DNA of 64,000 nucleotides, taken from contig JACZKQ010000131.1 of the NCBI GenBank assembly GCA_014859965.1, forward strand, positions 1 through 64,000, read 5' to 3'. The DNA is from Phycisphaerae bacterium (GTDB lineage: Bacteria; Planctomycetota; Phycisphaerae; Sedimentisphaerales; Anaerohalosphaeraceae). Under the pieces are notes generated by a model. It did no database searches, had not been told where the DNA came from, and saw nothing but the letters and a program-made list of their open reading frames with translations. This document shows positions 1,882-8,635 of the stretch, piece after piece. Every line of letters begins with the position of its first letter. Within the stretch, counting starts at the first letter, position 1. The translations under genes were made by a program, and so were the position numbers.

Positions 1882-2175
1882 AGGGCGGCGGCAACTTTTC
1901 GGCGGCTCGACAGCGGTCCGCAGGTTGCGGTGCGGGGCTTCTTTGTGATTGTTGTTCGGAAGGTTATTGCGGAATCACAGCCGCAGGGGCGGTTCTGTGC
2001 GTGCAGGGAGGTTTTTTAGGCGCCGATGCGCATCGCCCGGCGCGTGCGCAGGTGGGCGCATGTCATGGCCCGTCGGCAAACCCGGGCGGGGGTGAACCCC
2101 GACAGGATGCCCGTGCCACGATGTCGCCAGAGTTTGGTCTCGCACACGTTTTTTTAGTTTTTTTGATTTTTTCCC
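1882..2175. other. Intergenic region without a gene
   Basis: About 300 bases between the symporter and the small RNA promoter. I see no credible coding frame. It holds a GC-rich block with short inverted repeats near 2085-2115 and a T-rich run at 2149-2173, just before the promoter. The T-rich run could help end transcription from the symporter, but the hairpin before it is poor. Confidence 0.5.
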
Positions 2176-2204
2176 TTGCCGGGATCGGGGGTCGGCGGTA
2201 TGCT
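2176..2204 (+). promoter_or_regulatory. Sigma70-type promoter of the putative small RNA
   Basis: TTGCCG (2176-2181), a 17-nt spacer and TATGCT (2199-2204). The expected start of transcription, about 2210-2211, coincides with the first base of the closing stem of the RNA described next, which supports both calls. Confidence 0.55.
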
Positions 2205-2210
2205 ACATGT

Positions 2211-2420
2211 CCCTCAAGTCCTTCCACTTCTGGAAGGCACATAAAAGGTGCTGCTTGAACCTATTACGTAGTTACTCCTCCTCCTCCTCCAACTACAGGT
2301 TTGGAGCAGGACCTTTGCGCATAGTCTGTGTTTTGGGGTCCTTTAACTATTCAATGCTGCCGGGCTACCGTGAAATCGGCGGCTTGCAAGGGGCCAGGGG
2401 GGTGCAAAACGCCCTTTTTT
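2211..2420 (+). ncRNA. Putative structured small RNA with a CCUCC-repeat loop
   Basis: About 210 nt framed by a promoter and an intrinsic terminator, with no credible reading frame. Helices read by eye: a closing stem CCCT-CAAG (2211-2218) with CTTG-CA-AGGG (2383-2392); hairpin 1 CCTTCC/GGAAGG (2220-2237); hairpin 2 with outer pairs near 2253-2262/2297-2307 and a perfect inner stem GTAGTT/AACTAC (2268-2273/2291-2296); hairpin 3 AGGACC/GGTCCT (2308-2313/2337-2342) with a wobble inner stem; hairpin 4 GCTGCCG/CGGCGGC (2356-2383, whose last pair competes with the closing stem). The loop of hairpin 2 (2274-2290) is a run of CTC repeats, complementary to Shine-Dalgarno sequences. The end is GGGTG-CAAAA-CGCCC plus six T (2400-2420). 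The size would also suit 6S RNA, but the branched fold does not. The family is unknown to me. Confidence 0.6.
2400..2420 (+). terminator. Intrinsic terminator of the small RNA
   Basis: A 5-bp stem GGGTG/CGCCC (one G-T pair) with a CAAAA loop, followed directly by six T. It ends the small RNA transcript and leaves the next small gene to its own promoter or to read-through. Confidence 0.6.
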
Positions 2421-3115: not shown

Positions 3116-6100
3116 ATGGATACGGTCGTAAGATTCCGTTTTGACTGGCGTGGAAAGAGCCTGTTCGAAGATGGATACGCCTTGTTGGATCGCCTTGGGC
3201 AGCCGTCGGCACAGACGCTGGGGGACTGCCTTGGACGAACAATGGACCTGATCCGCGAGTACTCGCGAGATTTCTACTATAATCTTGTCGGCAAACGGGT
3301 ATGTCTGCGCGTGGGCGATTCGGAGGATGTGCCGGTCAGGCTGCGGCCGCACGACATTCTGTTAAACCGGCGTCTTTTGGTCGCCGCCGACGGCGACGGC
3401 GATGCAGCATGCGATTTTCTCGTGGCGAACATCGAGCGGGCTTTTTACCACCTGTGTCATCCGTTGTGTCATATCAGCCAGGTGCGGTTGGAGAACCTGC
3501 ATTTTGTCGGTGCGCATCCGGAACTTCTGCAATCGGCGATGCAACGGCTGCGGCACGACGATTTCGGTGCGGAGGGGCGGCTGTGGCTGGCGGAATTGCG
3601 GGAGGTCCAGACGCTGCTGCTGCTGGAGCGATTCTGGAAGTGGTTCGGCGAGCAGGCGGGCACCCGGCGCATTCTTGCTGTAACTGCCCGGCCGGGTCCT
3701 CGGGCCAGGAGCACGGCACGGGAAGTGCTGCTGCGTTATGCGGGGCTGTTTGCGGCCGAATGCGGCTTGTCGCCCGAGGCTGTTGTGCGGCGGATCGCGG
3801 CGTTTCGGCATTTTTTCGTGGAAGAAAATTCGGCCGTTTTCGTCTATCGTCTGGGGCGGCAGGTCCTCAAGGCGGCGCGTGTGTGCCGTGCGGACAGGCG
3901 GGATGCCTGGTCCGGCGCGGCGGCGTGCGCCTCGATGTTTTATCAGGATGTTCGCACGGACCTGTTTCACGATCACGGCCATTACATCGGACCGTGGCTG
4001 GAGCAGTTGAAACTTCAGAGCAAGGATTATTCGTTCGAAGCGCTGAGTCGGATGCTCCAGTCGGAGGATCTGCACACCGTCAATACGGCGGTCGACGATC
4101 TGGCGGACAGGATTCGTCATCATCAGCCGAACGGTTCTTCGCTGCGTCTGCTCTATGCGGCGCTCTATTACTGGCATCGCAACCGGCGGGATATCAGCCG
4201 CGCGGTGGATCTTCGGGTCGGGAAAATCCTTGAGGACGTGCTGACGGAAAGGCCGGCCTCTTTTCCCCCGTCGCGGGTCAACCGCAGCATTTTTCGGGGC
4301 GAGCCCGTGTGCGTTCAGGTGCAGATTCAGAAGCCGTATCGCATTGCCCGAGACAACATGGCGGCGCGTGTGCAGTGGGCGATTAATGGGCATCGCAAGA
4401 AGCCGGTGGCGATGGAACTCGATACGCCGGCGAGCCACGCTACGCAGCTTGTCTACCGGACACTGCTTCCCCGTCGGACAGGCTGGATTCATTATGCGGT
4501 GCAGATATCGCACGACGGCGGAAAGACCTGGCATTATGAGAAGTTCGATTCGCGCGCCCAGGGCCTTCTCAAATCGGTGGCCGACGAGCGGGGCCAGCGG
4601 GTGCTGAGCTTCTACTGCGACACGTTCAATCTGAAGCTGGACGCAGATTGGTCGCCGGTGCGGGACGCGGCGGGGGCGTACGTCTACGGCACCTTCGACG
4701 ACCTGGCGGCGCAGCTGCCGGCGATACGGGCGGAAGGCTACACGCGGATTTATCCGCTGGGGGCGCTGGAGTTGGGCTGGGCGGGCGAAGCAGGGCCCGA
4801 TCCGTCGGTGTTTTCCATCTGGGACGGCAGAACGGTGCGGCGGGATATGGGGGGGCTCGAAGGGCTGCTGCGATTGCAGGCGAAGGCCAAAGAATTGGGC
4901 ATGAAGGTGCTGCTGGACGTGGTGTCGCATTTCTCGCGGGCCAACGCGGAGTACCCTTACGATATGCCGGTTTATATCGCCGACTCGGAGGGGCGGCTTG
5001 CTCGCCGTGCGGGTTGGGACGGCGAATGGGATGAGTGGCGCGACAGCTTCATGGTGAATATGCGGGACTTCGAAAACGTCGAGCGTCTTGCGGTGCTGTG
5101 CGAGGACCTTACTCGTCTCGGGTTCGGCCTGCGTTTTGACGTGGGACACGGCTTCGATACTGTTTTTCCGGTGGACGAGAGTCTGGGCGGTCTGCCTCGC
5201 ACATTGGGGCAGGTGGTCACGCCGGGTTTTGAGCCGATGGACTTGCGCGGCACGTGGGAGCCGAACATCGCCATGCTGTACATCTGCTACCGGGTGCAGA
5301 AGAGCGTGCCGCAGGCGCTGCTGGCGTACAGCGAGCAGTGGCACGGCAACGAGGCCCGGATGATCAAATCGGGGACGATCCCTTATAACGCGATTATCAA
5401 GAATCTCGAAAACATGCGCAGCGGTCAGCCGGTCGACGCGTTTATGGGGCTCAACGACAATCTGGCGTACGTGGCGCGCGTGCTGGGGCAGTGCGGGGGG
5501 CAGACGCTGTCGCTGTTTAACACGCACGACGAGGAGGCGCCGGCGAGTAATTACCAGAACATGATCTGGCCGGCGGCGGCGTTTCTGGTGTTCAGCAGCT
5601 GCGGCCCGCTCATGTACCATATCAGCCGGCTCCCGGACGAGCGGGTGGGGTCGTATCACAAGCGCTTCGACATGGCGTATAACGAGTGCTGGAAACACTG
5701 GGTCAACAACCGGTTCACTCACCCGTGGGCCGAGGAGTCGCGGTCGCGCGAGGCGATCCTTTCGGCTTACCCGCTGCTGCGGGGGGTGGGTGCGTATTTG
5801 CGTGCGCTGTACAACTTCGTGGACGCCCATCCGGCGCTGACGAAGGGGATGATCCATCCGGTCCCCACGAACAACGACCGGATTGCGGCGTTTATCCGCT
5901 CGCACCAGGATCAGCGTTTTCTCTGCGTTTTTAATTTCCCCAACCCGGTCGGACAGGGGCAGCAGGCGGTGATGCGGGAGTTCAATTTTCCGGTGCGTTT
6001 CTCGGAATGCCGGCCGGCCCTGGAAAAACTTCAGGTGGATGCGGTCTACGAATTTCGCGAACGGTACAACAATGTGGAAGGGCGGATGCGCCGGGGTCGG

Positions 6101-8635
6101 AGGGAGTACTGGTCCGGCGAAGAACTGACGCAGTTGGGATTCGGCGGGGTCCTTGCCCCCGTGTCGTCGCGGGTCTATGAGATTATTTATCGCGATCATG
6201 CTGTTCACGAGAAGAACATCATACCGGATTCCTTCGTGCGGTATTTCCGATACGGCAAAGATGATCGCGTGAAGCACTCTTACATTGCGCTTGCGTTCCG
6301 TCAGGCCATCGCCGAGAAGGGGCGGTTCGAGCGGTTTGCCGAGCTGTTCACGATGACCGTTGCGTGGCTCAATCGCTATCGCCGGTTAGGCATCGGTGAG
6401 TTGGCGCTGCTGCTGGCGGAAATCAGCGAGGCGGAGGCCGACCGGTCGAAGGTGGTCGAATTTCTTCTGCGGATCGCCGTCAACGAAACGGAGGCCCTGG
6501 ACGCCGAAACCGTTCGGGCCGCGGTCAGCGTGCTTCAGTCGCTCAATATCGGTACGCTGGCGCTGGTGTCGCCCGAGTCGCGATTCAGCGGTTCGGCGGG
6601 CGGCGTCGGCATCTATACGACCGACATCGCCGACGTGCTCAGCGAACTGGGTTTTCACGTGGTTATCGTGACGCCGCTGTACGAATGCGACCGGGAGGGT
6701 ATTATCGCCGGGTTCAATCCGCGGTACGAGGGCCACAGCTTCAGCGTGCAGTTCCCTTCGTTCGACGATTCGACGCAGACGATCGGAATCGATCCGATGC
6801 CCGAAGTGGTCAATCTCCTGCGGTCGCGTCTGACGCGTGTGACGCACGGCAAGCGTTCGCGGGTGGACGTGCTGTATCTCGAAAACGCCAAGTACTTTGA
6901 TCGGCCCTATGGGGGATCGACCTCCGAGGATAAGCTGCGCCGCGCGCGGCTTTTGTCGCAGGGGGCGCTGGAGGCGCTGCGCTGCTACAACTACTATCCG
7001 GCTATTATCCAGATGAACGAATGGCCGACGTGGCTGGTGGGGGCGTATCTTACGCACTGGAGCCAATACCGTGAGGACCCGCATTTCGCCGCCACCCAGG
7101 CGTGCAGCATGATGCACAATCCGCATCCGGCCTACAGTATCGTGCTGGATGAGTACAATCCGGCGAAGCGGGATTATTACTGCCGTGTGATCGGGCTGGA
7201 TCCGGCGTTTCACTGGCAGGTCGCGTTCAATCCGGAGAGCCACAGCGGTCACGAACTGGACCTGATGCACGTCATGCTGATGACGTCGCAGTTTGTCGGG
7301 ACGGTCAGCAAGGCGATGCGCCAGCGCATTCTGGATGAGCCCTGGCTGTTCGGCCACGCGCGTCTGTTCACGGAGAAGGCGCGTCACGGGCGTTTTTTCG
7401 CCCGCCGCAACGGCTTCAATATGGCGGCGCGGCAGCGGTTCTGGTTCGGAACGAAGCGGAGCATTCTGGAGACCTACGACAACCGGGCGCGGCGGCGGCT
7501 GTTCAGGATCTGCCTGGAGCGCAAGGGCAGCGCCAAACTGCTCCTGCAGAGCGATCCGCGGATTCGTCTTACGCCGGACGACGCGGCGACGAATCATGTG
7601 ATCTTCGGCATGCTGCACCGGATCAGCCAGCAGAAGGGTTTCGAGCTGCTGGTGGACTGGAAGGTGTATGCGGCTTACGGCGCGCGGTACGTGCGTTATG
7701 AGCCGTGGAACATGAACGGTCCGACCATGCTGGAATATTTTCTGTCGTGTGATCCGCGGGTTCAATTCGTGATTTGCGGGCGGGTGGAGGACAGTCCCGA
7801 CGGTCGGCGTTTCGATATGCATTTCCACCGGATCGCCGGGCGGGAGGACCTGAAGGGGCGCTTCGCCTACCTGCCCCAGGGGGCGCTGCCGCCTTCTCTT
7901 TATCGCAACCTGTACATCGGCAGTCAGTACTTTGTCATGCCGTCGGGCGGCCAGGTGGGGGAGCCGTGCGGCATCAGCCAGCAGGAGGCCCACGCCGGCG
8001 GTACGCCGGTGATCGCGCACCATCAGGACGGCTTGCAGCGGACCGTTTGCGACAAGGACTTCGGCGACACGGCGCATCCGACCAACGGCATCAAGTTCAC
8101 GGGATTCAACGGAGAAGCGCTGCTGGAGGCTTTGCTGGACGGCGTGGAGATTTACTATCACGACCGGCGGCGCAGGTACGCGGGGTCGGACGGCCAGCCG
8201 AAGCGGCTGCGCTATCAGGATATGTGTTTCAATGCGTTCCATACGGACCACCGCTGGCTGCGGCTCCTGCACGACTATATCGATATGTATGCGGAGATTC
8301 TCGGCGCGGCGCTTCCCACGCATCTGGATGCGGCGCGGCTTATTTCGGAAATGCAGTTCATGCACGACGGTCACCTGGGCGACGTCGTTCTGAAGAAGGG
8401 GATGGATATGCCGTGGGCGGTCGATGCGCTTGTGGAGGCGATGGGCAGTGAGATAGTGAGCCTGCGGCGCGCCGCGGCGGCCACTATTTTGCGGCTCAGC
8501 GGCTCGCCGGGCGTTCGCGGCCGGGTGGATATACGGCGGAGACTCCAGCGCGCCGCCGAATCGGGTGCGACACCGCTGCGCGACACCGCCGGCGAGTGTT
8601 TGAAGCTGTTTGAAAAGCAGCGCGTCCAGGGTTGA
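3116..8635 (+). CDS. GH13 alpha-amylase-like / GT5 glycogen synthase-like fusion protein
   Basis: A 1839-residue protein, far longer than either family alone. Residues 1-400 are an unrecognised helical region. A beta-rich stretch (about 395-480, similar in place to the GlgE N-domain) precedes a GH13 barrel with region I DVVSHF (about 601), region II LRFDVGHG (Asp675), region III YSEQWHG (Glu740) and region IV NTHDEE (Asp805). From about 1147 a GT5 starch/glycogen synthase-like domain starts: SAGGVG takes the place of the KTGGLGD ADP-glucose loop, and GEPCGISQQEA gives the E-x7-E pair (Glu1616, Glu1624). The last 100 residues look like helical repeats. Likely role: building or remodelling alpha-glucan storage polymer in the cytoplasm. 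The ATG has AAGGA about 8 nt upstream. Confident on the two domains, not on donor or acceptor. Confidence 0.85.
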   Translation: MDTVVRFRFDWRGKSLFEDGYALLDRLGQPSAQTLGDCLGRTMDLIREYSRDFYYNLVGKRVCLRVGDSEDVPVRLRPHDILLNRRLLVAADGDGDAACDFLVANIERAFYHLCHPLCHISQVRLENLHFVGAHPELLQSAMQRLRHDDFGAEGRLWLAELREVQTLLLLERFWKWFGEQAGTRRILAVTARPGPRARSTAREVLLRYAGLFAAECGLSPEAVVRRIAAFRHFFVEENSAVFVYRLGRQVLKAARVCRADRRDAWSGAAACASMFYQDVRTDLFHDHGHYIGPWLEQLKLQSKDYSFEALSRMLQSEDLHTVNTAVDDLADRIRHHQPNGSSLRLLYAALYYWHRNRRDISRAVDLRVGKILEDVLTERPASFPPSRVNRSIFRGEPVCVQVQIQKPYRIARDNMAARVQWAINGHRKKPVAMELDTPASHATQLVYRTLLPRRTGWIHYAVQISHDGGKTWHYEKFDSRAQGLLKSVADERGQRVLSFYCDTFNLKLDADWSPVRDAAGAYVYGTFDDLAAQLPAIRAEGYTRIYPLGALELGWAGEAGPDPSVFSIWDGRTVRRDMGGLEGLLRLQAKAKELGMKVLLDVVSHFSRANAEYPYDMPVYIADSEGRLARRAGWDGEWDEWRDSFMVNMRDFENVERLAVLCEDLTRLGFGLRFDVGHGFDTVFPVDESLGGLPRTLGQVVTPGFEPMDLRGTWEPNIAMLYICYRVQKSVPQALLAYSEQWHGNEARMIKSGTIPYNAIIKNLENMRSGQPVDAFMGLNDNLAYVARVLGQCGGQTLSLFNTHDEEAPASNYQNMIWPAAAFLVFSSCGPLMYHISRLPDERVGSYHKRFDMAYNECWKHWVNNRFTHPWAEESRSREAILSAYPLLRGVGAYLRALYNFVDAHPALTKGMIHPVPTNNDRIAAFIRSHQDQRFLCVFNFPNPVGQGQQAVMREFNFPVRFSECRPALEKLQVDAVYEFRERYNNVEGRMRRGRREYWSGEELTQLGFGGVLAPVSSRVYEIIYRDHAVHEKNIIPDSFVRYFRYGKDDRVKHSYIALAFRQAIAEKGRFERFAELFTMTVAWLNRYRRLGIGELALLLAEISEAEADRSKVVEFLLRIAVNETEALDAETVRAAVSVLQSLNIGTLALVSPESRFSGSAGGVGIYTTDIADVLSELGFHVVIVTPLYECDREGIIAGFNPRYEGHSFSVQFPSFDDSTQTIGIDPMPEVVNLLRSRLTRVTHGKRSRVDVLYLENAKYFDRPYGGSTSEDKLRRARLLSQGALEALRCYNYYPAIIQMNEWPTWLVGAYLTHWSQYREDPHFAATQACSMMHNPHPAYSIVLDEYNPAKRDYYCRVIGLDPAFHWQVAFNPESHSGHELDLMHVMLMTSQFVGTVSKAMRQRILDEPWLFGHARLFTEKARHGRFFARRNGFNMAARQRFWFGTKRSILETYDNRARRRLFRICLERKGSAKLLLQSDPRIRLTPDDAATNHVIFGMLHRISQQKGFELLVDWKVYAAYGARYVRYEPWNMNGPTMLEYFLSCDPRVQFVICGRVEDSPDGRRFDMHFHRIAGREDLKGRFAYLPQGALPPSLYRNLYIGSQYFVMPSGGQVGEPCGISQQEAHAGGTPVIAHHQDGLQRTVCDKDFGDTAHPTNGIKFTGFNGEALLEALLDGVEIYYHDRRRRYAGSDGQPKRLRYQDMCFNAFHTDHRWLRLLHDYIDMYAEILGAALPTHLDAARLISEMQFMHDGHLGDVVLKKGMDMPWAVDALVEAMGSEIVSLRRAAAATILRLSGSPGVRGRVDIRRRLQRAAESGATPLRDTAGECLKLFEKQRVQG

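Follow-up and report, generated by a model that had tools for sequence, protein, structure and literature searches.

The locus examined here raises the question of whether a short, hairpin-rich region with a loop composed of CUC repeats is an RNA gene, and how such an RNA would act. It lies in the window, by which we mean the whole 64,000-nucleotide stretch that was analysed, which in the 5.28-Mb draft assembly (G000) is contig C10. Among the genomes of 59 relatives, one true homolog was found, on contig JAGHBX010000331.1 of Planctomycetota MAG AUK267 (G019), which belongs to another genus of the same family. The features of the locus and their state in G019 are as follows:

2150 to 2172, plus strand: T-rich tract upstream of the promoter; T-tracts lie at the same place in G019.
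2176 to 2204, plus strand: sigma-70-like promoter, read from the sequence as TTGCCG (2176-2181), a 17-nt spacer and TATGCT (2199-2204).
2209 to 2322, plus strand: conserved small RNA core, 79% identical to G019 over 123 nt; folding z-score -3.4 (G019 core, -2.8).
2220 to 2237, plus strand: hairpin 1, CCUUCCA-CUUC-UGGAAGG; seven of seven pairs kept in G019, three of them changed on both sides.
2245 to 2315, plus strand: hairpin 2, with a lower stem (2245-2255/2305-2315), a middle stem (2258-2261/2298-2301) and an upper stem (2268-2273/2291-2296).
2274 to 2290, plus strand: loop of hairpin 2, ACUCCUCCUCCUCCUCC, the proposed anti-Shine-Dalgarno (anti-SD) seed; identical in G019.
2316 to 2322, plus strand: tail U-GCGCAU 3' of hairpin 2, conserved in G019 and there followed by five U.
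2400 to 2420, plus strand: terminator-like GGGTG-CAAAA-CGCCC-T6, seen both by reading the sequence and in its fold.

The alignment of the two loci retains the -10 box, the 5' UCCC, hairpins 1 and 2 and the tail GCGCAU, while conservation ends at about position 2322 and everything beyond is lost. An earlier note on this DNA had described a promoter, a closing stem, four hairpins and an intrinsic terminator in a transcript of about 210 nt. The promoter holds up, as the TTGCCG/TATGCT pair is present and the -10 element is conserved in G019 as TATACT, with TTGAAA 18 nt upstream of it; the automatic scan did not list 2176-2204. The conserved unit is shorter than described, at about 110-120 nt, and the closing stem has no counterpart in G019. 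Hairpins 1 and 2 are borne out, but hairpins 3 and 4 are not, given that the 3' part is unconserved and its positions 2326-2419 fold no better than shuffles (z -0.6). The terminator can be seen at 2400-2420, but it is not conserved, and the automatic scan did not list it either. The core at 2209-2330 folds with a z-score of -3.4, matched by 1 of 200 shuffles, and its opposite strand folds more weakly in the shuffle control (z -1.9). The RNA would begin at 2209-2211, with the tail at 2316-2322 as a possible 3' end, and the terminator-like hairpin may provide an optional downstream end of the transcript.

In hairpin 2, the lower and upper stems are fully kept and the three-part fold is common to both sequences. 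The coordinates given earlier for the loop, 2274-2290, are exact, and the 6-bp stem that bears it is indeed perfect; the loop is 17 nt long and holds five CUC units. A run of 34 nt (2268-2301), which starts with the upper stem, spans the loop and ends in GGUU, is invariant between the window and G019. All 24 of the 24 modelled base pairs are kept in both RNAs, and slid controls show no double compensatory changes; these pair statistics rest on the slid control and the pair counts, as a shuffle control is powerless with two sequences. Conservation of the stems in relatives, proposed earlier as a check, was therefore found, with compensatory changes in G019. The symporter orthologs of the two genomes share 71% protein identity and 33% identity at four-fold sites (72/218). 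Silent positions have thus reached saturation, yet the RNA is still 79% identical. The simple reading of these identities would be that selection acts on the RNA; transfer of the RNA alone fits the compensatory changes less well. Taken as a gene for RNA, 2209-2322 is near certain to be real.

The surroundings of the RNA differ between the two genomes. In the window, its neighbours are symporter and amylase/glycogen synthase genes. In G019, the RNA lies between two genes of the opposite strand, for a GH5 cellulase and a Gfo/Idh oxidoreductase, and the symporter ortholog sits on a different contig, where the RNA is absent within 1.5 kb. Because the neighbours differ, the RNA is read as a separate gene and not the leader or 3' UTR of one gene; it has a promoter, as judged by sequence only, and is conserved without its neighbours. 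The window neighbourhood also contains, at 3116-8635 on the plus strand, a 1839-aa ORF in which, by eye, an amylase-like part is joined to a glycogen-synthase-like part; protein search found no counterpart of it in G019.

To place the RNA among known families, it was compared with Rfam (4227 families, E 5), where neither the locus nor its G019 relative gave a match, bar one spurious microRNA hit. The earlier note had presented the RNA gene as undescribed and had named 6S RNA (RF00013) as a family to check; the window RNA does not match the RF00013 model, and the genome's sole RF00013 match, its 6S RNA, lies at C159:39675-39859, above the Rfam cut-off. When a covariance model built on the two sequences was run against 397 genomes from the class, 38 from the family and 161 from the order, it recovered these two copies and no other; the class set gave no G019 match, apparently since G019 was not drawn. 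The RNA was found in 2 of the order's 161 genomes, and both known orthologs (n=2) come from draft genomes. No match was found in the plasmids and phages searched. Further candidates were rejected. A weak covariance match in G455 (E 0.56) lacks the CUC loop and most stem pairs, and the BLAST matches L003 and L004 are due to chance. The exact hairpin pattern also turned up in Bacteroidales, Paceibacterota, Psychroserpens and Pedobacter, at sites that do not adopt the structure, and two viral pattern matches lie antisense within genes.

We consider it probable, from the sequence comparison, that 2209-2322 encodes a regulatory small RNA, transcribed as a unit of its own, whose CUC loop blocks the Shine-Dalgarno (SD) sites of several mRNAs without the need for Hfq; a block of ribosome binding is likely to be the mechanism. 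More specifically, the open CUC loop would pair with ribosome-binding sites of the GGAGG type in several mRNAs, so that the 30S subunit is kept away, and the perfect 3-nt repeat would permit binding in several registers. With a rigid loop and a short G-C pairing, Hfq may be unnecessary. SD sites are in use in this genome: within the window, GGAGG or AGGAG precedes 15 of 45 genes (expected 4.9), and UUUACAGGAGGACGUGAUG is an example of a window leader. Pairing with the loop is better at start regions than within genes (p 0.002), as would be so for any CCUCC sequence, to which SD pairing is generic. BLASTP revealed no mRNA targets with GGAGGAGG before the ATG that are shared by the window's genome and G019. 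Hfq (PF17209) gave no match in G000, a 99% complete draft, and was positive in 5 of 14 control genomes; this negative result sets the RNA apart from Hfq-dependent small RNAs and suits a rigid C-rich loop.

A search for the loop motif in the family found that CTC runs within long ORFs are patternless, whereas noncoding CTC runs show a pattern. A second CUC RNA of the window's genome, L031 (G000:C13:25783, minus strand), has an ortholog in G019 (L036, G019:C289:3586, plus strand) with 77% identity over 91 nt; the RNA shows CTTTTCTCCTCCTCCAAA followed by a strong terminator hairpin and a T-run. A third, noncoding site (L041/L136, G000:C92:69712-69730, minus strand) presents a (CTC)6 loop on a perfect 8-bp stem (z -3.9), and no ortholog of it was seen in G019. 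The CUC RNAs L113 (G018:C209:694) and L114 (G009:C445:2986) share an unchanged sequence that begins at the CUC tract and includes the terminator; they are conserved in one genus, with similar upstream DNA, and end in a T-run plus GCGCA. CUC tracts lie directly upstream of terminators in G010 (14 bp) and G007 (12 bp). In L122 of G007, the CUC loop itself forms the apex of the terminator hairpin, followed by nine U, and hairpins related to L122 occur in three places in G002, two of which fold no better than shuffles on their own. CUC hairpins that fold no better than shuffles include L121 and L143. In G006, two CUC tracts, L110 and L124 (G006:C1:1671449 and 1671659), are 210 bp apart, each with a hairpin after it.

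The association with terminators was then counted at 18 noncoding CTC sites, which were picked by motif and not by structure, some of them having been inspected before the test was designed and a few being interrelated. A terminator lies within 75 nt at 9 of 18 sites on the CTCC strand against 2 of 18 on the other strand, and downstream terminator stems of at least 10 bp are found at 8 of 18 against none. When 15,030 noncoding 7-mers in 1.6 Mb of the complete G006 genome are ranked by the presence of a same-strand terminator within 40 nt, CTCCTCC comes first (4 of 17 occurrences, none on the opposite strand; base rate 1.4%), a ranking that is supportive only, as the four counts represent two independent loci. 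From these sequences, the CUC RNAs, which extend to other genera, appear to form a wider, undescribed group in this planctomycete family. The window RNA would then be one of a set with a common seed and different stems, some members of which carry the CUC tract at the apex of an intrinsic terminator hairpin or directly upstream of one; hairpin 2 of G019 with its U-run may be the same terminator-type arrangement. Support for the anti-SD reading comes from the exact preservation of the loop and from the independent CUC-repeat RNAs in the same genomes. As a tentative extension, which we hold to be somewhat short of an even chance, the family may run RNAs with unrelated stems, all bearing CUC anti-SD seeds and several of them in or beside terminators, as an Hfq-free layer of translational control, in a phylum for which few small RNAs have been described.

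Pairing with mRNA via a C-rich hairpin loop is known from 6C/B11 of actinobacteria, from which the window RNA differs in its loop sequence and in having no Rfam match. GsrN of Caulobacter likewise uses a C-rich hairpin loop as its mRNA-pairing element (PMC5869019), but it activates katG, is stabilised by Hfq and has a different loop sequence. A close parallel in design is alpha-r14/NfeR1 (SmelA075) of Rhizobiales, whose loops carry the period-3 anti-SD motif CCUCCUCCC; NfeR1 represses through these seeds, blocking translation at the ntrB ribosome-binding site (PMC10746234). The loop ACUCCUCCUCCUCCUCC is an unpaired period-3 anti-SD motif as well, without the exact terminal CCC. The alpha-r14 loops are ultraconserved, with stems diverging until covariance models become inadequate (PMC3927594), and conserved loops with diverging stems are also seen among the CUC RNAs described here. 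In contrast, alpha-r14 has at least three motif hairpins per RNA, where the window RNA has hairpin 2 only; the CUC repeat here extends to five units, which makes it longer, and can form part of a terminator hairpin or adjoin one. Furthermore, the window RNA comes from another phylum and has no sequence or Rfam match to that family. In Xanthomonas, sX13 is about 115 nt long, carries C-rich loops on stable stems that act without Hfq, and has as its targets for repression mRNAs bearing G-rich motifs close to the start codon (PMC3771888). It differs in having three CCCC loops in place of CUC repeats, and no homology was found. By analogy, the best explanation is that the CUC RNAs would work like alpha-r14/NfeR1 and sX13, through a likeness of design, with no homology detected.

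Several other readings were weighed against anti-SD action. The CUC loop could be a protein site or a decoy for GGA-rich RNA, with the RNA acting by sequestration. All 17 nt of the loop are conserved, beyond the need of a short seed, the repeats would offer several binding sites, and no conserved mRNA target was found between the two genomes. We still regard this as unlikely, as loops of such sequence have a tested anti-SD seed role elsewhere (PMC10746234) and CUC tracts are also found unpaired next to terminators, a finding more in line with base pairing than with a single protein-bound shape. A cis-acting role within a longer transcript, either as the 3' region of the symporter mRNA or as the leader of the gene at 2581, is rather improbable. 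The loss of synteny in G019, with both flanking genes on the opposite strand and the symporter ortholog lacking the RNA nearby, makes this unlikely, and a promoter-like -10 is conserved just upstream. What speaks for it is that the upstream symporter gene (154-1881) and a downstream 93-aa ORF at 2581, with an AGGAG site, are on the same strand, and that some of the CUC tracts at other loci come after a stop codon (L110 and L139 in G006, L110 just after its gene's stop).

The notion that a hairpin formed by chance about a trinucleotide microsatellite, or that this is a short gene for a serine-run protein, is very improbable and largely refuted. (CTC)n tracts do occur in coding genes of these genomes, and the locus had been said to hold no coding frame, whereas an ATG ORF of 111 aa (2207-2542) is open and passes through the RNA. 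This ORF has no Pfam match and its frame is broken in G019 by indels of 2 and 1 nt; the earlier claim does not hold to the letter, but no protein frame is conserved. Across a saturated distance, the repeat has kept its length, and its flanking stem and hairpin 1 are conserved too. Size and a stem-rich fold might also suggest a diverged housekeeping RNA, either SRP RNA or 6S RNA, the latter being a structured bacterial RNA of similar length. This is exceedingly improbable, considering the separate 6S RNA at C159, the failure to match RF00013 or any Rfam family even at E 5, and a presence in 2 of 161 genomes of the order that is unfitting for such an RNA.

Among the papers searched, none describes planctomycete anti-SD small RNAs, and a listing of small RNA families gives 8 for the PVC group against 345 for Proteobacteria (PMC9029176). 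If the anti-SD reading is true, planctomycetes would have evolved seed-sharing anti-SD RNAs without Hfq, and the design would recur across phyla; such RNAs could then be found by a simple motif, namely CUC repeats located within a terminator hairpin or next to one. As a possible special end signal, TTTTTGCGC was rejected, as it trails several terminators but is not clearly enriched in G006. A T-run plus GCGC ends several intrinsic terminators and CUC RNAs (L157-L176 in G006, L036, L113, L114 and L140).
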